DNA of 64,000 nucleotides, from contig NZ_QFZQ01000005.1 of assembly GCF_003171675.1 (NCBI RefSeq), positions 186,001 through 250,000 of the forward strand, given 5' to 3'. Position numbers and translations under genes: made by a program. The notes beneath the pieces are model-generated. The model saw nothing but the letters and a program-made list of their open reading frames with translations. It ran no database searches and had not been told where the DNA came from. Every line of letters begins with the position of its first letter. The stretch's first letter is position 1. The stretch is from Reichenbachiella versicolor. Its GTDB lineage: Bacteria; Bacteroidota; Bacteroidia; Cytophagales; Cyclobacteriaceae. Below, in pieces: positions 516-43,953 of the stretch.

Positions 516-908
516 TTATACTGCAATGGTTGGTATTCTTTTTTCTATTCTCTTCCCGCTTTTTTTGATCGCGATCTCAATGCGGACTTTGAGTTCTTCT
601 GGATTAAATGGTTTAGAAACTGAATCAAATGCATTCATCCTAAGTGCCTTTATTCTTTCCTCGCTTTTATCCTCATTAGTTAAAACTATGAGTGCTGAAT
701 TCTTTAATGAAATATGAGATTGGATCAGATCATCGCTCTCTCCCGTCATAGTATACAATAGCAAATCAGGCTCGTCAAACTCTTCTTCGATCTCAATCAA
801 CTGTTCCATAGAGCTAAATGCTTCTACTTCGTAAGTACTACTCAGGTAGTTAAACAAGAACAATCTCATCATTTGGTTTGGCTCTATGATTACTACTTTG
901 CGATCCAT
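516..908 (-). CDS. Stand-alone receiver-like protein lacking phosphoacceptor Asp (copy 1)
   Basis: This is a 130-residue CheY-like fold with no output domain. The usual acidic pair after strand 1 is E9-P10 (VVIIEPNQ), the phosphoacceptor position reads PDLLLYT with Thr53 where Asp is expected, and the conserved Thr77 and Lys99 (SKPF) are kept. That makes it an aspartate-less or pseudo-receiver, so phosphorylation-independent signalling or protein binding is likely (inference). It is the last of three tandem paralogues and lies 12 nt upstream of the lipoprotein gene. A TAAATTTG promoter box lies 29 nt before the start. Confidence 0.85.
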   Translation of the reverse strand: MDRKVVIIEPNQMMRLFLFNYLSSTYEVEAFSSMEQLIEIEEEFDEPDLLLYTMTGESDDLIQSHISLKNSALIVLTNEDKSEERIKALRMNAFDSVSKPFNPEELKVRIEIAIKKSGKRIEKRIPTIAV

Positions 909-936
909 ATTTCTTCTTTTAGTATTGAATATGTCT

Positions 937-944
937 CAAATTTA
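937..944 (-). promoter_or_regulatory. -7 box TAAATTTG of receiver copy 1
   Basis: On the minus strand this reads TAAATTTG, an exact match to the Bacteroidota -7 consensus TAnnTTTG. It sits 29 nt upstream of the start at 908. The -33 region reads CTCTTTTA rather than TTTG, so the upstream half is weak or served by another factor. The same box at the same distance precedes the two paralogues. Confidence 0.55.
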
Positions 945-1169
945 GAAGTAGCCTTATTCCGTAAAAGAGATAATAGATGACTGACACTGATTTAAGGCTG
1001 ATTGGTAATTTTTAATGGTCTTAGTAGTTGATCCTAATTTTTACGCCAGTTACGTAACTAAAAAACCATTAAACTTCGGTTATTAACCATTCAACCAATA
1101 AATAGCACCGATAGTCTAGTTATCTACCAGACTATTCTTTCTAACAAATCAAAACGATCTATATCACCC

Positions 1170-1197
1170 GTGAAAGAGTAGAATATCTACTCTTCAC
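1170..1197 (-). terminator. Hairpin downstream of receiver copy 2
   Basis: The arms AGAGTAGA and TCTACTCT are perfectly complementary around a 3-nt loop, extended by GTGA/TCAC with a one-base bulge. It lies about 40 nt past the stop of copy 2 on the minus strand. No clean T-run follows, so it is a terminator or 3'-end stabiliser with only moderate confidence. Confidence 0.4.
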
Positions 1198-1234
1198 TAA
1201 GCATTAACTTTTCATAACTAGTATAATTATATAC

Positions 1235-1624
1235 TTATACCGCTACAGTAGATAATCCTTTACCTGTTCCTTTTAAGTTATTCTTAATAGCAATCTCAAT
1301 ACGAACTTTGAGTTCCTCTGGATTGAAAGGTTTCGAGATAGAATCATTAGCATTCATTTTCAGTGCTTTGATTCTTTGCTCGCTTTTATCCTCATTAGTC
1401 AAGGCTATGAGGGCTGAATTCTTTAGTGAAATGTGTGTGCGAATAGAAGTATCATCCTTGTCGGTCATAGTATAAAGTACTAAATCTGGTTGATCGAACT
1501 CTTTAAGTTCAACCAGCTGCTCCAACGAACTGTAAGTCTCTACTTGGTACTCACTGCTTAAGTAATTAAACAAGAATAATCGCATCATTCGATCGGACTC
1601 TATGATTATTATCTTGTGTTCCAT
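1235..1624 (-). CDS. Stand-alone receiver-like protein lacking phosphoacceptor Asp (copy 2)
   Basis: This 129-residue protein is a close paralogue of the flanking copies, sharing the blocks MMRLFLFNYLSS, HISLKNSALI and KPFNPEELKVRIEIAIK. E9-S10 replaces the acidic pair and Thr52 occupies the phosphoacceptor site (PDLVLYT). The switch Thr and conserved Lys remain. There is no DNA-binding or enzymatic output domain. It has its own TAATTTTG promoter box (1653-1660), so it is probably transcribed separately from copy 1. The ends of the three copies diverge most, as expected of tandem duplicates. Confidence 0.85.
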   Translation of the reverse strand: MEHKIIIIESDRMMRLFLFNYLSSEYQVETYSSLEQLVELKEFDQPDLVLYTMTDKDDTSIRTHISLKNSALIALTNEDKSEQRIKALKMNANDSISKPFNPEELKVRIEIAIKNNLKGTGKGLSTVAV

Positions 1625-1652
1625 AATTGTAGTGTTTAGATTGATTGTACTA

Positions 1653-1660
1653 CAAAATTA
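1653..1660 (-). promoter_or_regulatory. -7 box TAATTTTG of receiver copy 2
   Basis: This is an exact TAnnTTTG match on the minus strand, 29 nt upstream of the start at 1624. The spacing is the same as in the other two paralogues. Confidence 0.5.
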
Positions 1661-1852
1661 GGAACATCGATAAAAGAGTAAAACCTATAAGTGAGAGAAT
1701 TTTATGGCTAATCAATGTTTTTTGTAAGTTTTTTTACTGTGATAAGCATATTCTCGACTGATTACTTACAAAAAGAACCTAACTCTTGACTCCTAACGCT
1801 TCAATCTTCACAAGGATTCTTTAATTGAAATAATTTAATTTTTGACTGAAGT

Positions 1853-2242
1853 TTAAACTGCAAGAATTGAAGATTTATTTTTTGATCTAGCTTCTCTATT
1901 TCTAATCGCAACTTTGATACGAATTTTAAGTTCCTCTGGACTAAATGGTTTTGAAATAGAGTCATTAGCATTCATTCTAAGTGCCTTTATCCTTTCCTCA
2001 CTATTATCTTCATTCGTCAAGGCTATAATGGCTGAGTTTCTTAGCACTAAATGTGTTTTGATATAAGTATCGTCCTTATCCGTAATAGTGTATAATACCA
2101 GATCTGGCTGATCAAATTTTTCAACTTTGGATAGATCCTCCAATGAACCATAAGCCTCGACCCTGTAGTAATGACCTAAGTAGTTAAACAAGAATAATCT
2201 CATCGTTTGATTGGGCTCTATGATCATAATCTTGCTTTCCAT
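1853..2242 (-). CDS. Stand-alone receiver-like protein lacking phosphoacceptor Asp (copy 3)
   Basis: The start is placed at 2242 (MESKIMIIEPNQ), which aligns with the starts of the other copies (MDRKVVIIEP, MEHKIIIIES). A longer reading frame from 2287 would place the TAGTTTTG promoter box inside the gene, so the long form is unlikely. The 129-residue protein has Glu9 in place of the first acidic residue, Thr52 in place of the phosphoacceptor Asp (PDLVLYT), and keeps the conserved Lys (SKPF). It is the first of the three-gene tandem set and has no output domain. Function is unknown; the family resemblance is to pseudo-receivers. Confidence 0.82.
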   Translation of the reverse strand: MESKIMIIEPNQTMRLFLFNYLGHYYRVEAYGSLEDLSKVEKFDQPDLVLYTITDKDDTYIKTHLVLRNSAIIALTNEDNSEERIKALRMNANDSISKPFSPEELKIRIKVAIRNREARSKNKSSILAV

Positions 2243-15850: not shown

Positions 15851-16102
15851 TTATGTAATATGCTCTGGGGCGATCAAAGTATGCAGCTGGGTACGGAAAG
15901 TGTGCTCTCGGGTGGATGAATTATGCTTTTAGGAATTTAAAGTGCGGTTTTGGGTTTGCTGAGTATACTCTAGGGAGATCAAAGTATTGTTTGGGTAGTC
16001 TGAAGTGTGTTAAAAGGAAAGTGTAGTATGCTTTGGGGAAACTGAAACATGGTCTTAGGAAGTTAAACTGCGCTTGTGGGAGTGTTAAGTATGGTGTTGG
16101 GA
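15851..16102 (+). repeat. Degenerate 21-bp tandem array, 12 units
   Basis: Exactly 252 bases divide into 12 units of about 21 bp with a pattern close to nnnnnAAGTaTGcTnTnGGGa. Units 1-8 correspond one-to-one with the eight units at 42433-42600, for example ATTTAAAGTGCGGTTTTGGGT against ATTTAAAGTGCGGTTTTAGGT. In one frame each unit reads as a heptapeptide near LKYALGx, but a stop codon interrupts each array. There is no start codon, so it is not called as a gene. Confidence 0.7.
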
Positions 16103-16213
16103 TTGGGTTTGAGCAGGTTTTTGTTATTCAAAATTACGTGGCGTCGTTCTTTGAGGGGTTTGGTTTGTTTTTTTGGGTTAGGTAAATAAGGATATATGTG
16201 TTGTAGATTACCG

Positions 16214-16245
16214 TTTGTTATTGGTTGTTGTCGTTTATAGTATTG
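16214..16245 (+). promoter_or_regulatory. Promoter TTTG-N20-TAGTATTG inside 5' repeat copy A
   Basis: The -33 TTTG (16214-16217) and the -7-like TAGTATTG (16238-16245, one mismatch to TAnnTTTG) are separated by 20 nt. Both boxes and the exact spacing are conserved in the two other copies, which supports function. It would drive the gene at 16309 with a leader of about 57 nt. Confidence 0.55.
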
Positions 16246-16308
16246 TGTTTCAATACGAAAGAAAAACGGAGTGTTATTACTCGGTTGTTAGGGTCAACTC
16301 AGAACAGA

Positions 16309-17448
16309 ATGAAATTTTATTTATTAGCCGCCTATTTAATTGCATCAATAACTGTTCAATCTCAAAGCATTGAAGGAACTTGGAGAGTAAGTCATGCCCA
16401 GACTATTGATTCTTCAGCATTGTCAGTTGAAGTTGACACCAGATCTACAGATCAATATTATATATCACCTGCATTCATAACATACCATAAACTTAGTGGT
16501 CTCCTTGAAGTTTCAAAAAACAAGGTGATATCTCACAGTTTTGTAAATGAACCTGAATCTGTGAAACTCGAAAAGAAGCGTGGTAATTCAACTTTTAAAG
16601 CAAACGGTCTAAGGGTTAGCGTTGACAACCATTCTCCAGACAGCTTAGTATTGAGGGTAAAAAAAGAACCTAACGATTTTATGATTCTCTACCCTTTTCA
16701 AAACAGCAAAGGAGAGATTCAACTTAAAGACTTTGAAAATTCACACTGGGTAACTTCCTCTAATTATGATTTTTTTAATGGCTGGACACTTCATTTCTTA
16801 GATAGTGGACAGGTCAATGTTGTTATTCAAAGGGAACATTTCGGAACAACCTCCTTTGCTACTTACAAAGTTCACAAAAGCAATCAATATCATTGTTTAC
16901 AGATTACCGATAGACATAATATGTTAGACGATTTCATATTCTACTTAAAGAATCGAGACGGTGATAGTTTATCATTCATTATCGATCATCAAAATATGGA
17001 TCATCCTACAGAATCTCAGGTTGTTCTAACCAAAACTGAAGGAATTACAAACTCTCAACAACAGCAGATCTACACTGAATTGATTGGAAAGTGGAACTTT
17101 GAGATGTTTTCTTCGAATATAACAACTTATATATTTGACTCTCTCATAGACTTGAACTATTCAATTGATCTGAGATTGGACAGTACTTTTAGACTAACCA
17201 ATCAAGCTGAATACATTGAATCAGGTTCAGTCTCCTCATATCAACAAAACCTAACAGGTAAGTGGCAACTTTCAACGACTGCAGACTTCATAACTCTAAT
17301 ATCTGAAGACAATCCGCTACTACAAAAACATCTAACCATCTATGAACTTCGAGACCAAGAACTGACTATAGATTTAAGCTATTCATTTGATGAATATTCT
17401 ACAGTCCAGTCTAGAATGAAGATGAAAAAAGACCCTAACAATCGCTGA
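16309..17448 (+). CDS. Secreted lipocalin-like protein, cargo gene A
   Basis: This 379-residue protein starts MKFYLLAAYLIASITVQSQS, a signal peptide. An in-frame extension to 16225 would run through the repeated non-coding DNA, so the start is placed at 16309. After the signal come IEGTWRV (a lipocalin-like opening), then two beta-rich halves; a second GKWNFEM at about residue 270 suggests an internal duplication of a lipocalin-type domain, and GKWQLSTT follows. I know no precise family. It is the cargo between a 5' repeat (ending 16291) and a 3' repeat (17491-17570). Confidence 0.72.
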   Translation: MKFYLLAAYLIASITVQSQSIEGTWRVSHAQTIDSSALSVEVDTRSTDQYYISPAFITYHKLSGLLEVSKNKVISHSFVNEPESVKLEKKRGNSTFKANGLRVSVDNHSPDSLVLRVKKEPNDFMILYPFQNSKGEIQLKDFENSHWVTSSNYDFFNGWTLHFLDSGQVNVVIQREHFGTTSFATYKVHKSNQYHCLQITDRHNMLDDFIFYLKNRDGDSLSFIIDHQNMDHPTESQVVLTKTEGITNSQQQQIYTELIGKWNFEMFSSNITTYIFDSLIDLNYSIDLRLDSTFRLTNQAEYIESGSVSSYQQNLTGKWQLSTTADFITLISEDNPLLQKHLTIYELRDQELTIDLSYSFDEYSTVQSRMKMKKDPNNR

Positions 17449-17490
17449 TCTCGCCATGGTGCACTCTGCTAGTTTGGACAGACCTGTTTT

Positions 17491-17570
17491 CTACTTACAT
17501 CCTTTAAATGACTCAAACGGAATGGTAGTTGCGCAAACACCATTTGAAACATGACGGGAATTAAGGGAAA
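17491..17570 (+). repeat. 3' hairpin repeat of the cassette family, copy 1
   Basis: The core ACTCAAACGGAATGG and TAGTTGCGCAA is shared with copies 18427-18600 and 43748-43911. In the intact copies it forms two hairpins, an imperfect palindrome TGGTAGTTGCGCAACCACCA and the stem CCATGT/ACATGG. Here the second arm is degenerate (CCATTT...ACATGA). It lies about 45 nt after the stop of cargo gene A. Confidence 0.6.
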
Positions 17571-17676
17571 CTTATACTAAACCACACGCCACGATTGATA
17601 CAGTGATGTTGTAGAGCATTTCGCAAGTCACTAATCTAAATTCTTCTTGAACGAAATGTATTTACTATATTTTAAA

Positions 17677-17724: not shown

Positions 17725-18180
17725 ATGAAAAATTTAGAATCGCAGATTGAAGAATTGGAAAAGATGAGAACTACTTGGCTTCTTGTTTTTCTAATCGGAT
17801 TTATTTTTTGGGATGGTTTTAGAATCGTTACTAACCACTTTCCTGAAAATAAAATGGTGAATTATGCCACAACAATTAGCTTACTAGGATGGCTAACATG
17901 GACATTGGGCTTGATTCAAATGTTTCGGATGGGGTATAAAGTCAAGAAAGTAAAACAAGCGGCACAAATCCTAAATGATGAACTAGTTGAGTTAAATCGA
18001 TTGAAATCATGGCGGATAGCTTTTATCACTGTTGTTTTGGCTCAACTAGCAATAATGGCTTTATCCCTTCTTTCATTTGACATTTCAGGTATCCTTTCTG
18101 CCGAAATATCTATTTTCATTGCAGTTACAGTAGCGTTATCTGCTTTTATTTATTATAACAAGAGTATTGCTAATGGCTGA
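17725..18180 (+). CDS. Small membrane protein, four predicted helices
   Basis: This 151-residue protein has a short coiled-coil N-terminus (KNLESQIEELEKMR), then four transmembrane segments in two pairs separated by a charged stretch (YKVKKVKQAAQILNDELVELNRLKSW). The function is unknown. It overlaps the HTH gene start (18173) by 8 nt, so the two are translationally coupled. Membrane-protein/HTH pairs of this sort are common and the membrane protein often modulates the regulator (known pattern, inference here). Confidence 0.7.
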   Translation: MKNLESQIEELEKMRTTWLLVFLIGFIFWDGFRIVTNHFPENKMVNYATTISLLGWLTWTLGLIQMFRMGYKVKKVKQAAQILNDELVELNRLKSWRIAFITVVLAQLAIMALSLLSFDISGILSAEISIFIAVTVALSAFIYYNKSIANG

Positions 18181-18388
18181 ATTCGAATTGAAAAATACTA
18201 TTAAAGTAGAGAGAGCCAAAAGAAACATGACACAAGCTGAGTTAGCTTTGATGATTGGTGTTTCTCGCAAGACCATCAATACAATAGAAACAGGAAAGTT
18301 TATTCCTTCTACTATAACCGCATTCCGAATTGCTAAAGCTTTTAATGTCAGACCAGAACAAATATTTGAACTTGTATCAAATGAATAA
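18173..18388 (+). CDS. HTH transcriptional regulator (XRE/YozG-like)
   Basis: This 71-residue protein is essentially a lone helix-turn-helix: IKVERAKRNMTQAELALMI, then GVSRKTINTIETGKFIPST as the turn and recognition helix. The start is ATG 18173, overlapping the membrane gene's stop. A GTAAC/GTTAC inverted pair at 17684-17700 is a candidate operator for autoregulation. Confidence 0.88.
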   Translation: MAEFELKNTIKVERAKRNMTQAELALMIGVSRKTINTIETGKFIPSTITAFRIAKAFNVRPEQIFELVSNE

Positions 18389-18426
18389 AAAGCCCAACAA
18401 TAGATACTATCATCCATAAGCTAGCT

Positions 18427-18600
18427 GAGCTATTTGCAAGGGCTGGTGGGATCAGATATTTTTATAGAAATTGAATAGTCTTGCTTACTAATGATAGTTA
18501 GACGCTATCGACCACATGGCTCTTTACATTCTTTCAGTGATTCAAACGGACTGGTAGTTGCGCAACCACCATGTGAAACATGGCGGGAACTAGAGGGAAT
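18427..18600 (+). repeat. 3' hairpin repeat of the cassette family, copy 2
   Basis: Starting at GAGCTATTTGCAAGGGCT, it matches copy 3 (43748-43911) over roughly 165 bases, with the core in 18521-18590. The core holds the near-perfect palindrome TGGTAGTTGCGCAACCACCA (one mismatch) and the perfect stem CCATGT-gaa-ACATGG. It lies 38 nt after the stop of the HTH gene. Confidence 0.72.
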
Positions 18601-18873
18601 TTGGGGCTAGCTTACTTCAAATGTAGGATCTCTCTCACCACCCTTGCCGCTTGTTTTGCTTCCCCAGTCGCCTTTGGAGCGCATACAGGACTTTCATCTT
18701 TTGGAACGCCTCTCTTTTGAGAGAATATTCACCGTTCAAGGCACATATTAGCGATATAGCACATACCTAGGGGTTACTTGAAACTATTCTCTAAATCCGA
18801 TACTTTAGTAGGTATTAAATAGGTTCAGAGGCACGTGCCATATCTGGTCAATAGCGGTAATCCTAAAATTCTA
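18601..18873. other. Gap between 3' repeat copy 2 and Imm26-like gene
   Basis: No gene is visible. The first 130 bases look more GC-rich than the surroundings (for example CTTGCCGCTTG and CCCCAGTCGCC), and no start or stop pattern of a real protein was found. Confidence 0.4.
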
Positions 18874-19560
18874 ATGTCAACTATAAAAGATCTAAGAACA
18901 GGAGCAATCTTTGAAGTTAAACTGGATGATAATCTAGGGTTCGGATATGTTAAATTAATAATTTTCCACGATATCGATTCAGACGACACATTTAACTTGT
19001 TTATTGTAAAGCCATACAATTATTACTCTATATCTAGCATCAAAAAATCGTTTGACCCGCAATTTTTTGAAACAGATGATATTATATGCTTCCCTCAAAA
19101 TATGTACTTCAGGCCTAAATTGAGAGGAACAGATGCATGGAATTACATTGGGATGAGTAAGTTGACAGAGGAAGATTTAATCCTTCCTGACTACTTGATA
19201 CTTCCCAATGGGTATTTCTGGTACGAAGGATTAAAAAAAGCCATACGCGATAAGGCTGAAATATGGATAAGGGATAGTCTTAAAAAAACAGTTTCCAGAA
19301 AAGTAAAGTCACACTTAAATATTGATCATTTAGGCATTTGGCCACATACTGGATCACAGTGTATTAACAGGTTTTTAAGTATGTACTGGATGAAGGAGAA
19401 AGGACGTGACCATTTGAATTTTTATCAAAAGTATAAATCTGAAGAAAGTTATTATGAGCGAGAACCCTATGACTACATTGGTGGTGGTCTTTTAATTATG
19501 AATAGAGAGAATCATGCATTTCAACAAATGAATAAAGTTGAAAGGTTGAAACACCGCTAA
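18874..19560 (+). CDS. Imm26-like uncharacterised protein
   Basis: This protein is 228 residues from the ATG at 18874. An in-frame GTG at 18835 would add 13 residues and cannot be excluded. The N-terminus MSTIKDLRTGAIFEVKLDD followed by LGFGYVKLIIF resembles the small beta-barrel at the start of Imm26-type immunity proteins (pattern 'GxIFxIxL...GxGxV'). The C-terminal half has many aromatic and charged residues (YYEREPYDYIGGG) and no match I recognise. No toxin gene is adjacent. The stop codon lies in CGCTAACAAACG. Confidence 0.6.
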   Translation: MSTIKDLRTGAIFEVKLDDNLGFGYVKLIIFHDIDSDDTFNLFIVKPYNYYSISSIKKSFDPQFFETDDIICFPQNMYFRPKLRGTDAWNYIGMSKLTEEDLILPDYLILPNGYFWYEGLKKAIRDKAEIWIRDSLKKTVSRKVKSHLNIDHLGIWPHTGSQCINRFLSMYWMKEKGRDHLNFYQKYKSEESYYEREPYDYIGGGLLIMNRENHAFQQMNKVERLKHR

Positions 19561-19600
19561 CAAACGCTATAAATGAATAGGGTTTGAGCAGGTTTTTGTT

Positions 19601-19860
19601 CCAGAAACGGCTAAAAAACCGCCATTCGCTATTATTCTGCCCCTATTCGCTGAAAAAAATGGCTCTACGCACTTTTGGAAGGGGTGTTCGCTGTTTTGGA
19701 AGGCCCATTCGCACTTTTTTATAGCCATTCGCATGCGAATACCCCTTCAAAATCAGCGAATGGCACTCAAAAAACAGCGAATGGCCCCTGAAAATGTGCG
19801 AATGACCCCAGAAAATCTCCGTAGCGCCATTTTTTTTCAGCGAAGGGTTATTTTTTCTGG
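19601..19860. mobile_element. 260-bp foldback (MITE-like) insertion
   Basis: The ends are CCAGAAA and TTTCTGG, and the interior is a long imperfect palindrome centred at 19733/19734 on the perfect core ATTCGCATGCGAAT. The arms are built from repeated units such as CATTCGCTGTTTTGGAAGG and AGCGAATGGC. It is flanked by direct repeats GTTTTTGT (19592-19599 and 19861-19868). Copy A of the same repeat (16115-16140 region) reads straight through with a single GTTTTTGTTATTC, giving the empty site. There is no coding capacity, so transposition would need an enzyme in trans. Confidence 0.7.
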
Positions 19861-19974
19861 GTTTTTGTCATTCTAAACTGCGTGGCGTCGTTTTTTGAGA
19901 GTTTTGGTGTGGTTTTATGGGTTTAATGACTGTTTTACTGATTCTGCACTAGAGTAAACTATGTATTCCCGTCG

Positions 19975-20006
19975 TTTGTAATTGATTATTGTCGTTTATA
20001 GTATTG
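19975..20006 (+). promoter_or_regulatory. Promoter TTTG-N20-TAGTATTG inside 5' repeat copy B
   Basis: The boxes and spacing are the same as in copies A and C. It would drive the HNH-like gene at 20063. Confidence 0.55.
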
Positions 20007-20062
20007 TATTCAATACGAAAGAAAAACGGAGTGTTATTACTCGGTTGTTAGAGATAAAATAT

Positions 20063-20908
20063 ATGGCGAAATGCTGGATTTGTAATGGTGACTTACCTTT
20101 AACGGGGGAACACAAATTCAAAGCTTCTCTACTAAGAAAAGGGTACGGCAAAAAGTACAAGAATGAGGATTCATTGTATTTGATCAAAAACGGCCAACCT
20201 AAAGAGGAAGAAAGAATCGAATCATACAAATCTCCCTTGGTCAAATTTGAAAATTCTATATGTGCGGATTGCAATAACGCAAAAACTGACCCTCACGACA
20301 ACAGTTTTGATCAATTCATGAGTTATATAGAATCAAATTATCATCTATTATTAGAACAACAAAATTTAAACTTTGAGAGTATTTTTCAACTTGATTGGCT
20401 AACTCAAAAACGAAATTTGTTCAAGTATTTAGCAAAAATTATAGGCTGTAAACTTCAATCTATCAATAAAGAGTCACCTCTTAATGAACTCTCTAATTTT
20501 ATCATAGAAGATTTAACACCATATCGGTTTAACATAAAATTTGAATTGAATGAAGGTGTTCATTACCTTTATCAGTCGGCAAAAATCAACAATAAAAATT
20601 ACTACCACCTTTATTATGGCTCTACGACTTACTATGTAAACAGAAAGCATGATATGTCATTTGGAGGATGGGTATCATTTCAATGGATCACAGTACATTG
20701 GATTTTCAGTTCTTATATTAAGTCTTCGATTAAGGATAATCTTAGCAGTTCATGTTCCAGTTTAAAAATCAAAAGCATTAACGATTGTAAGTCATTTATC
20801 AACATGACTCCTTTAGAAATAGTAGAAGAAATTGAAACTAGTTCTAGAGAGAATCAGCAGAAACGATATAAACATTGTATGCAAATGGAGGACGAAAAAT
20901 ATCTCTAA
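20063..20908 (+). CDS. HNH-like zinc-binding nuclease domain protein, cargo gene B
   Basis: This 281-residue protein starts MAKCWICNGDLPLTGEHKFK; an in-frame extension to 19982 runs through repeat DNA and is rejected. The Cys4 set is CWIC (residues 4-7) and CADC (about 71-74), with EHKFKASLL and CADCNNAKTDPHDNSFDQF between and after. This arrangement (CxxC, Glu-His, CxxCNN) is that of HNH-type endonucleases such as HNH_5. The C-terminal 180 residues are unrecognised, with tryptophans around WVSFQWITVHW. As a phage or plasmid defence nuclease it is only a guess. It directly follows 5' repeat copy B. Confidence 0.7.
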   Translation: MAKCWICNGDLPLTGEHKFKASLLRKGYGKKYKNEDSLYLIKNGQPKEEERIESYKSPLVKFENSICADCNNAKTDPHDNSFDQFMSYIESNYHLLLEQQNLNFESIFQLDWLTQKRNLFKYLAKIIGCKLQSINKESPLNELSNFIIEDLTPYRFNIKFELNEGVHYLYQSAKINNKNYYHLYYGSTTYYVNRKHDMSFGGWVSFQWITVHWIFSSYIKSSIKDNLSSSCSSLKIKSINDCKSFINMTPLEIVEEIETSSRENQQKRYKHCMQMEDEKYL

Positions 20909-21271
20909 CATTTGATATGTCTGCAGGGCGGCTCAGAGGTAGAAGAGGCCCAGTTGCTTTAAGACTGCGTCTTGATACAGGAAATGAATCAGTAGTGTCT
21001 CTGACACGGTCTTGAATGCAGTGAAGATGTTTAGAGCTCCATTAGTGCCAAGGCTGTATGGCGGTTCACCATTCAAAATCTCCATCACCTCAAAAAAACA
21101 GCCATAGCAAAGAGACTCTGCACACCCCAATTACAAATTATATGTTTTACCCTGTTCAACATGACCACTTTTTTTACTTTAAACTTATAATCTATATTAA
21201 ATTAAGAATGGTAGCCAATAGCGAGCGCTTAAGTGCAATAGAAACGTAACTGCATCTAGTTTAATCCCAAG
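20909..21271. other. Gap with GC-richer relic, between cargo B and AAC(3)-like gene
   Basis: Bases 20920-21130 look more GC-rich than the surroundings. On the minus strand they contain a short open frame (20933-21130) with an in-frame stop directly upstream, so it may be a remnant of a longer gene such as a transposase C-terminus; I could not identify it. The remaining 140 bases are AT-rich without a gene. Confidence 0.4.
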
Positions 21272-42432: not shown

Positions 42433-42695
42433 ATGATAAATATGCGCTAGGGCGATCAGAGTATGCAATTGGATACGTAAAATGTACTCTTGGGAGTATA
42501 AATGATGCTTTTAGGAATTTAAAGTGCGGTTTTAGGTTTGCTGAGTATGCTCTAGGGCAATGAAAGTATTGTTTTGGTAGATTGAAGTGTGCTAAAAGGT
42601 AAATAAGGATTTATGTGCTGTTTGTGATTGGTTGTTGTCGTTTATAGTATTGTGTTTCGATATGAAAAAAACGGAGTGTTATTACTCGGTTATTA
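42433..42695 (+). repeat. 5' repeat of the cassette family, copy C (with 21-bp array and promoter)
   Basis: It consists of eight 21-bp units (42433-42600) that match units 1-8 of copy A, followed directly by the core (AAATAAGGATTTATGTG to CGGTTATTA). The middle segment present in A and B is missing. The promoter is TTTG 42621-42624, a 20-nt spacer, then TAGTATTG 42645-42652. It is followed after about 30 nt by the gene at 42728. A and C even share CAGAAC some bases beyond the boundary. Confidence 0.72.
42621..42652 (+). promoter_or_regulatory. Promoter TTTG-N20-TAGTATTG inside 5' repeat copy C
   Basis: The boxes and the 20-nt spacing are identical to copies A and B although the flanking bases differ. 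Confidence 0.55.
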
Positions 42696-42727
42696 TGATC
42701 AATCCCAGAACTTCAAAATTTATCAAA

Positions 42728-43711
42728 ATGAAAAAGATATACTTAGTAGTTTCCTCAATGTTATTTGCCTTATCAACTCATGCTCAATGGACAGATAACG
42801 GAACGAATCTGACTACAACTGACAAAGTTGGGATTGGGACAGTCAGTCCATTGTTCAACCTAGACATCAAAACCAACAATACCTACGAGGGAAACAACTT
42901 ATATTTTGGGGACAGAAGATTCTATTTAGCAGGAATTACTGGAACAGGTTCTCAAATGTATGGCGGATTAATCCTTAATAACCTTACATCAATTCATGGA
43001 GGTCTAAGGTCATTGGAATTTTCTGTTGGAAATAACAATTTTAGTAGTATATCAAATCCAGAAAATAAAATTTTAAGTATTCAGAGTACTGGAAGAGTTG
43101 GAATTGGGTCTGGAGAAATGATTGCAAAGTATCCATTGGATATCAAAACGAATAGCGGATACGAAGGAAACAACCTTTATTTTGGTGATAGAAGAATATA
43201 TTTAGCAGGTATTACTGGGACAGGAAAACAAATGTATGGTGGATTTGTTCTCATAAACGAGGGTAGTGGTGTCAGAAGTTTAAACATTGTAGCAGGGAAT
43301 AATGATTTTAGCACTGATAAAAATCCGGAGAATGTCATAATGAAAATAAAAAGCTCGGGTAAAGTAGGCATAGGCACAGATGATACTGGTTCTCATAGAC
43401 TAGCAGTTGACGGCTCAATCGGAGCAAGAGAAATTAAAGTAGAAGCAAGTGGATGGTCTGACTTTGTTTTCTATGAAGACTACGAACTTCGAACACTTGA
43501 GGAAGTTGAACGACACATAGAAGAACAAGGTCATCTCCCACAGATTCCGAGTGAAAATGAAGTAATTGAAAATGGCATCAACTTAGGTGAAATGGATGCT
43601 AAACTGCTTCAGAAGATAGAAGAGTTAACCCTGTATCTAATCCAACAGAACAAACAACTTCAAGCTCAACAGGAAAAAATTGATGAACTTGAAAAGAAAG
43701 TCAACAATTAA
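42728..43711 (+). CDS. Secreted tail-fibre-like protein with internal repeat, cargo gene C
   Basis: About 327 residues from MKKIYLVVSSMLFALSTHAQ (signal peptide). The extension to 42632 would be repeat DNA and is rejected. Two similar halves share VGIGT, LDIKTN and GNNLYFGDRR-YLAGITGTG-QMYGG (about residues 37-75 and 132-170). The C-terminus (DYELRTLEEVERHIEEQGHL, then a coiled coil QQNKQLQAQQEKIDELEKK) is the tail-fibre/S74-like module common in secreted Bacteroidota proteins. It lies between the 5' repeat C and the 3' repeat 43748-43911. Confidence 0.78.
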   Translation: MKKIYLVVSSMLFALSTHAQWTDNGTNLTTTDKVGIGTVSPLFNLDIKTNNTYEGNNLYFGDRRFYLAGITGTGSQMYGGLILNNLTSIHGGLRSLEFSVGNNNFSSISNPENKILSIQSTGRVGIGSGEMIAKYPLDIKTNSGYEGNNLYFGDRRIYLAGITGTGKQMYGGFVLINEGSGVRSLNIVAGNNDFSTDKNPENVIMKIKSSGKVGIGTDDTGSHRLAVDGSIGAREIKVEASGWSDFVFYEDYELRTLEEVERHIEEQGHLPQIPSENEVIENGINLGEMDAKLLQKIEELTLYLIQQNKQLQAQQEKIDELEKKVNN

Positions 43712-43747
43712 AAAGATCATAACAGAACCTATACTCCATATGCATTC

Positions 43748-43911
43748 GAGCTATTTGCAAGGGCTAATGCTATCCGATACATTAGTAGAAATTTGAAAAG
43801 TCCAGCTTACGAATAATTGCGAGCCGTTATTAACCACACGCCTCTTCACATTTTTTAAATGATTCAAACGGAATGGTAGTTGCGCAACCACCATGTGAAA
43901 CATGGCGGTAC
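43748..43911 (+). repeat. 3' hairpin repeat of the cassette family, copy 3
   Basis: It starts GAGCTATTTGCAAGGGCT like copy 2 and ends around 43911 (GGCGGTA). It contains both hairpins intact: TGGTAGTTGCGCAACCACCA and CCATGT/ACATGG. It lies 37 nt after the stop of cargo gene C and precedes the convergent HTH gene. Confidence 0.72.
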
Positions 43912-43953
43912 CTTAGGTTTGTAGTGTTGTAATATTTTAATACAGCCGAGGGA

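Follow-up and report, generated by a model that had tools for sequence, protein, structure and literature searches.

Three different genes in a 64,000-nt stretch of the Reichenbachiella versicolor genome (hereafter, the window; contig NZ_QFZQ01000005.1, positions 186,001 to 250,000) each begin just downstream of a copy of the same repeat. The original prediction for this DNA held that these genes are cargo, exchanged between a fixed 5' core and a fixed 3' core, and that they represent a possibly new gene-cassette family. We asked what bounds these genes and which system they belong to. On the evidence below, we regard it as highly probable that these genes are cassettes belonging to an integron-type system, and the window's copies are probably stranded.

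The 5' core occurred three times in the window (Table 1), with a different gene just 3' of each copy (ATG at 16309, 20063, and 42728), as had been claimed. Identity among the copies ended at ...GGTTGTT or GGTTATT (i.e., ...CGGTTGTT), beyond which the sequences differed, confirming that it halts at the cargo boundary. A genome-wide search with the core yielded 14 matches (E ≤ 0.001) in the host and none in the seven other Reichenbachiella genomes, and no Rfam family was detected in the window at the gathering score. A 5' GTTRRRY facing a 3' RYYYAAC within one unit is a known signature of integron cassettes. For all three core-preceded cargo genes, the 5' boundary (GTT...) was the reverse complement of the unit's own 3' end (...AAC), located at the gene end.

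Table 1. Cassettes, sites, and repeats in the window (positions count from its first nucleotide)
Feature	Position	Strand	Description
5' core, copy 1	16212-16291	+	Right half of attC/attI-like site; ends in R' GTTAGGGTC, R' start 16287
Cassette A	16287-17439	+	Gene 16309-17448, secreted-looking, no Pfam match; 5' GTTAGGGTC (16287), 3' GACCCTAAC (17431-17439), reverse complementary
Site after cassette A	17431-17614	+	attC-like, chimeric: GCTGATC-type left half, REP-like insert, right half ending GTTGTAG
Second repeat, copy 1	17439-17562		
Membrane protein and HTH_3 regulator pair	17725-18398	+	HTH_3 regulator 18173-18388; 3' GCCCAAC
Site overlapping end of this pair	18392-18512		attC-like
Second repeat, copy 2	18468-18591		
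REP-like two-hairpin element	18521-18590	+	3' core of the original prediction; more copies near 17495-17569 and 43848-43913
Cassette D	18851-19561	+	Gene 18877-19560, weak sub-cut-off Imm26 match; decayed 5' ATAGCGGT (18851), 3' CACCGCTAAC (19552)
Unit between cassettes D and B	19552-20055	+	attC-like, ~500 bp; R'' CGCTAACAA ... R' TTGTTAGAG
5' core, copy 2	19973-20051		
Cassette B	20047-20909	+	Gene 20063-20908, HNH-like by eye, no Pfam match; 5' GTTAGAGATA (20047), 3' TATCTCTAAC (20900-20909), reverse complementary
5' core, copy 3	42620-42700	+	Repeat match 42620-42696; R' changed to ATTATGATC
Cassette C	42692-43723	+	Gene 42728-43711, secreted-looking, internal repeats, no Pfam match; 5' (A)TTATGATC (42693), 3' GATCATAAC (43715-43723), reverse complementary
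Site after cassette C	43715-43835	+	attC-like; R' GTTATTAACC at 43826; aligned with attC of L091
Second repeat, copy 3	43790-43913		

The second repeat had been proposed as the 3' flank of the cassettes. Three copies were present, but the two-hairpin part lay ~47 nt past the stop of gene A and ~137 nt past that of gene C. Since related palindromes lay in either orientation at other places in the genome stretches examined, we take the second repeat for a REP-like element and rejected it as a cassette boundary; the 3' ends of the cassettes are the ...AAC motifs. Dispersed, cassette-independent palindromes in both orientations, as expected of a REP or MITE, were found only for this two-hairpin element and not for the cassette boundaries.

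Four stretches of the window looked attC-like (Table 1), and a REP-like two-hairpin element lay in or beside several of the window's sites. The site types seen after cassette A recurred in four other loci (L079, L088, L090, and L091); by eye, its left half was like that of GCTGATC-type sites (L079, L090), and its right half resembled another type from L088. The unit before cassette B, compared in the same way, started like the GCTATGAATGAATGGGG type and ended as the 5' core; to our knowledge, sites of ~500 bp are longer than any attC. The membrane protein/HTH_3 pair, for which no matching 5' boundary was seen, is probably a decayed cassette. Many sites of the R. versicolor genome look chimeric or decayed, and the odd sites in the window may reflect decay, insertion, and recombination following integrase loss. 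Elsewhere in the window (560 to 2196), a 300-nt repeat (family D1) was present in three diverged copies, which overlapped three open frames.

We then considered boundaries throughout the host assembly (5.25 Mb; 22 contigs). A scan with a loose boundary pattern gave mostly false sites (at least nine matched bases in 8 of 82, versus 224 of 6,642 swapped pairings), and the tests below instead use 22 curated boundaries of two kinds (14 of the 5'-core kind and 8 of the integrase-end kind; the partial cores L017:10061, L019:3120, and L014:9932 were omitted). Using test words that start with TT rather than GTT, the reverse complement of the first 8 bases (TT plus 6) was found within 3.5 kb downstream for 13 of these boundaries, compared with 2.1 expected from swapped loci; the other nine had no such partner within that distance. 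The match ran into AAC for nine boundaries (0.57 expected), namely, five of the eight integrase ends and four of the 14 cores (three in the window and one in L016). All three core-preceded cargo genes in the window passed both tests, while 10 of the 14 core boundaries had no partner running into AAC, so that most core copies outside the window failed. The partners of the remaining four boundaries (L014, L074 at 13835, and two in L075) stopped short of AAC and may be due to chance.

As predicted, the window appears to hold no integrase; its contig (C18) had no match to the IntI profile at E ≤ 0.001, and no match in the host assembly exceeded the IntI family cut-off. A search for a recombinase elsewhere in the genome had been suggested, and we found only C-terminal pieces of an integrase of this type. 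The longest piece (C17:25854-26216) corresponded to residues 260 to 380 of the relatives' protein and contained one stop, and the others were shorter and likewise C-terminal. Two 300-aa open frames in the host presumably encode XerC and XerD. The C17 fragment was followed by four chained cassettes (L079) and then by a gene pair that we take to be ParD/ParE-like; this fragment (ribosomal S1 gene, tRNA-Cys) showed no chromosomal site in common with the relatives' integron loci. An integrase end with an attI-like site, or an attI-like part with the last few codons alone, was present at eight places in the host, and in the six that were read, the unit preceded unrelated genes. The integrase 3' ends at these places (in L021, L027, L028, L074, L075, and L077) were cut at differing points. 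Given that only integrase fragments were found in the host, the window cassettes are probably stranded.

The origin of the 5' core bears on this explanation. Rather than half of an attC, the core may be a second attI-like site, left by a second lost integron and duplicated upstream of many cassettes, either through homologous recombination or because the platform end moved. This reading would supplement the integron-type explanation, and we consider the chances to be even. The core ends in a hairpin and GGTTGTT, resembling the post-integrase site of L116 and L085, and the units of integrase remnant and attI-like site multiplied similarly, at the eight places described above; on the other hand, no integrase sequence could be read within the core, and its absence from the seven other genomes of the genus also counts against this origin.

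Six of the seven other Reichenbachiella genomes retained a larger or complete integrase. In five of them (G002 to G006), it spanned nearly the whole query, which was the G003 protein (67% in G002, G004, and G005; 63% in G006), and G001 had a 284-aa version. G007, like the host, carried C-terminal pieces of this type only, several in number. At L088, L090 (G003), and L091 (R. faecimaris), the integrase was followed by a palindromic attI-like site with GTTR and then by tandem single-gene cassettes with attC-like sites. Homologues of the cassette C gene were present in two cassettes of the R. faecimaris array (38% over 370 residues for one and 63% over 131 for the other), and the boundary words GTTATGATC and GATCATAAC were common to cassette C and these two cassettes. 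Among the best 80 of 85 confirmed loci from a scan of named genomes, all were, judging by their titles, from Bacteroidota (Aquimarina, Marivirga, Marinoscillum, Fulvivirga, and others), except one labelled as a Rickettsiales metagenome-assembled genome.

Of 93 loci scanned, 57 matched the integrase-open reading frame (ORF) pattern (the other 36 are not necessarily broken), and 45 remained after removal of four with no GTT in reach and eight with <600 bases downstream. Nine bases at the attI-like boundary recurred downstream as their reverse complement in 23 of these 45 loci (0.8 expected), which include L095, L097, and L098, not clear members, and one place counted twice (L091 and L101). With 8 bases, the count was 25 (2.5 expected), and with 10 bases, it was 11 (0.2 expected). 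Chains of cassettes and the sites between them were counted without L089, L095, L097, L098, and L101. Chains of at least four cassettes lay downstream of the integrase at 15 of 31 loci, with none upstream and none in 155 shuffles; the other 16 loci had no chain of four. For chains of at least three cassettes, the corresponding numbers were 20 of 31 downstream, 0 of 31 upstream, and 3 of 155 shuffles.

The 110 sites between chained cassettes, which include some chance pairs (e.g., those of L139), ranged from 64 to 658 bases, with 81 of them at 119 to 240 bases. After 13 sites of >300 bases were dropped, an L''/L' stem score of at least 20 was reached by 87 of 97 sites, compared with 149 of 2,806 swapped and 14 of 1,940 shuffled pairings. 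Folding of the attC bottom strand gave z scores of -5.1 and -4.5 for two sites; two other folds were weak, at -2.2 for one site and -1.5 for a wrongly placed stretch of L094. The relatives' sites thus combine the R''/R' and L''/L' complementarity of attC, which is degraded in the window. In 26 of 49 loci, a palindrome with arms of at least 8 came after the stop codon of the integrase, versus 32 of 2,450 shuffles and 0 of 44 control stretches. A palindrome and then GTTR past the stop codon, as expected of a putative attI, were seen in the relatives, and in the host they were seen beside integrase fragments only.

The integrase itself lacked the additional domain (patch) of IntI. A block of 37 alignment columns was filled in all 11 canonical IntI, taken from the same phylum, and empty in all 29 integrases of the patchless kind, some of which are established as heading an array. 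Alignment of a relative's protein with a solved integron integrase (2a3v) gave two pieces that left out chain residues 208 to 242. Three full proteins scored 194 to 209 bits, below the TIGR02249 cut-off of 265; one of the three reached the cut-off of NF040815 (NCBI; site-specific tyrosine recombinase/integron integrase), and two narrowly missed it. In a phylogenetic tree, canonical IntI formed one clade (100/100), and the patchless rows lay on a separate branch with modest support (88/78). This branch also held L098, and the patchless rows are therefore not established as one clade. Their placement is provisional because the bootstrap was unsettled and two long Xer branches served as outgroups. 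Two further patchless tyrosine recombinases, from two genomes of the same family (L099, 192 to 1001; L100, 7587 to 8396), directly precede a gene that presumably encodes an IS91-like transposase; these IS91-associated recombinases grouped with IntI in the tree (99/86). Many integrases carried an extra N-terminal part of ~100 residues, absent in L086, L093, and L094; the one scanned (L090, 8053 to 8380) had no Pfam match.

Canonical IntI does occur in the phylum. Among 296 genomes sampled from the phylum as GTDB defines it, 84 had a canonical IntI over the cut-off; of the 85 with an IntI match at E ≤ 1e-60, one was labelled as the same class and none as the same order or family. In a closer sample, the cut-off of TIGR02249 was reached by 2 of 146 relatives, each from the same family and one with a partial match. 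These occurrences would fit a view of the window cassettes as CALIN remnants of a canonical integron that lost its normal integrase, the relatives' patchless recombinases being bystanders. We judge this improbable. No genome of the same genus reached the TIGR02249 cut-off. In ~9 kb beside the canonical IntI of G032, no array was seen by eye; chains of at least three cassettes accompany patchless integrases on the downstream side at the frequencies given above, and the host's fragments end in the same patchless C terminus and attI-like site.

The integron-type reading with a patchless integrase also accounts for exchange. One cassette was common to the host (L079, from 11282) and G003 (L090), with 727 of 762 identical bases (95%); the core genes compared between these genomes were 70 to 76% identical in pieces of at least 876 bases. 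The match started at (C)GTTATGTACC and ended at ...GGATCG|, where the next base was T in L090 (forming GTT) and C in L079, the right-end R' being altered in the latter. The left-hand cassette and the right-hand sequence differed between the two loci. At ≥80% over 300 bp, this was the one cassette shared between host and relatives among the stretches compared and the single case of exchange with a G|TT crossover. Although located outside the window, it supports the prediction that cargo is exchanged between fixed boundaries.

ORFs of at least 100 aa from the window's cassette regions had no match at the homologous junction (13 kb taken) in any of the seven relatives. There, an 815-aa gene (split in G002) adjoined a conserved block in all seven genomes, with one or two small genes in between in G003, G005, and G007. 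This block corresponds to ~62.8 to 54.3 kb of the window and is inverted there. One breakpoint of this rearrangement (15593 to 64000) falls after 15592 and before the repeat of cassette A. To the right of the cassette regions, the flanking sequence showed no synteny with the relatives within the stretches taken. A reading of the repeats as ordinary REP/MITE-like or promoter elements between genes, with the cassettes a coincidence helped by homologous recombination between repeats, is very improbable: the dispersed REP-like palindromes in both orientations, the many mosaic units, and the promoter-like position, just upstream of a gene, of most core copies that were read would suit it, whereas complementary 5' and 3' boundaries in host and relatives, chains of at least four cassettes solely downstream of the integrase, and an interspecies cassette with G|TT edges and differing neighbours argue against it.

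From the boundaries, arrays, attC stems, post-integrase palindrome, integrase fragments, and one exact interspecies cassette exchange, all read directly in the sequences, we propose the following model. In the intact form represented by the relatives, the tyrosine recombinase gene would point towards the array, and the palindrome with GTTR just past its stop would serve as attI. Cassettes of one gene each, terminated by an attC that can fold as a single strand, would be integrated there and excised through recombination at G|TT. The patchless recombinase presumably performs this recombination, and its likely substrate is the folded bottom strand of attC. With the integrase reduced to C-terminal fragments in the host, the window cassettes would be stranded and are probably now immobile, and their attC sites would have decayed, gained REP-like palindromes, or turned chimeric.

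Sedentary chromosomal integrons (e.g., those of Vibrio and Xanthomonas) have attI beside the integrase, tandem single-gene cassettes, attC with R''/L''/L'/R' boxes, and a G|TT crossover. The same attI position, tandem arrangement, boxes, and crossover recur here, whereas the integrase is without the additional domain of IntI, falls on a branch separate from the IntI rows included, and is transcribed towards the cassettes, and the hosts are mostly Bacteroidia. What is unusual in the Reichenbachiella system is the patchless integrase; the cassettes themselves are of integron type. The original prediction is therefore supported as to the 5' repeat, the cargo boundaries, and exchange, but not as to the 3' core as a boundary or a new cassette family, since the genes match integron cassettes in anatomy and boundaries and the same genus contains a system of this kind headed by an integrase.

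In the relevant passages of a study of Treponema integrons (PMC3607928), IntI is co-oriented with the cassettes, as here, and the attC arrays of T. phagedenis without intI provide a precedent for arrays outlasting intI. The integrases are treated there as IntI, unlike the patchless proteins described here, and attC measure 63 to 132 bp, compared with 119 to 240 bp for 81 of our 110 relative sites and ~500 bp for one window site. CALIN elements, in the sections concerned of PMC9024848 and PMC8618304, share attC-bounded cassettes without an intact integrase; they differ from the present case in its scatter of single cassettes or short runs, its chimeric sites, and the patchless integrase in relatives.

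One point against our explanation comes from PMC8138268, where an integron-like subgroup is placed among simple tyrosine recombinases and the insertion that our integrases lack is called essential for integron function. In the passages concerned, insert-less members are not tied to cassette arrays; here, arrays adjoin insert-less integrases. The survey in PMC2426708, as far as its selection step is described there, picked integron integrases by the patch. The portion of the IntegronFinder 2.0 paper on these hosts (PMC9024848) names Salinibacter ruber as the bearer of one complete integron within Bacteroidetes proper, with only In0 elements earlier, and the taxa given in the relevant part of PMC8352920 for 11 attC models include no Bacteroidota. 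Among the papers listed in our literature search, no title or abstract beginning described patchless integrons or Bacteroidia cassette arrays; most subscription journals and bioRxiv lay outside its scope, and an earlier description is possible.

We lean towards the view that these loci represent a second integron lineage, widespread in Bacteroidia and missed by surveys that require the patch, in which a Xer-like patchless recombinase would capture attC cassettes. If it is active, the patch would be dispensable for cassette recombination, and the lineage would either be the sister of IntI or have evolved the same mechanism independently. Were a patchless system common, the known host range of integrons would expand, large pools of unread cassettes in marine Bacteroidota would become accessible, and both the origin of the patch and the need for it would be directly testable. 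The R. versicolor genome may show one possible fate of cassettes and attC sites once the integrase has been lost.
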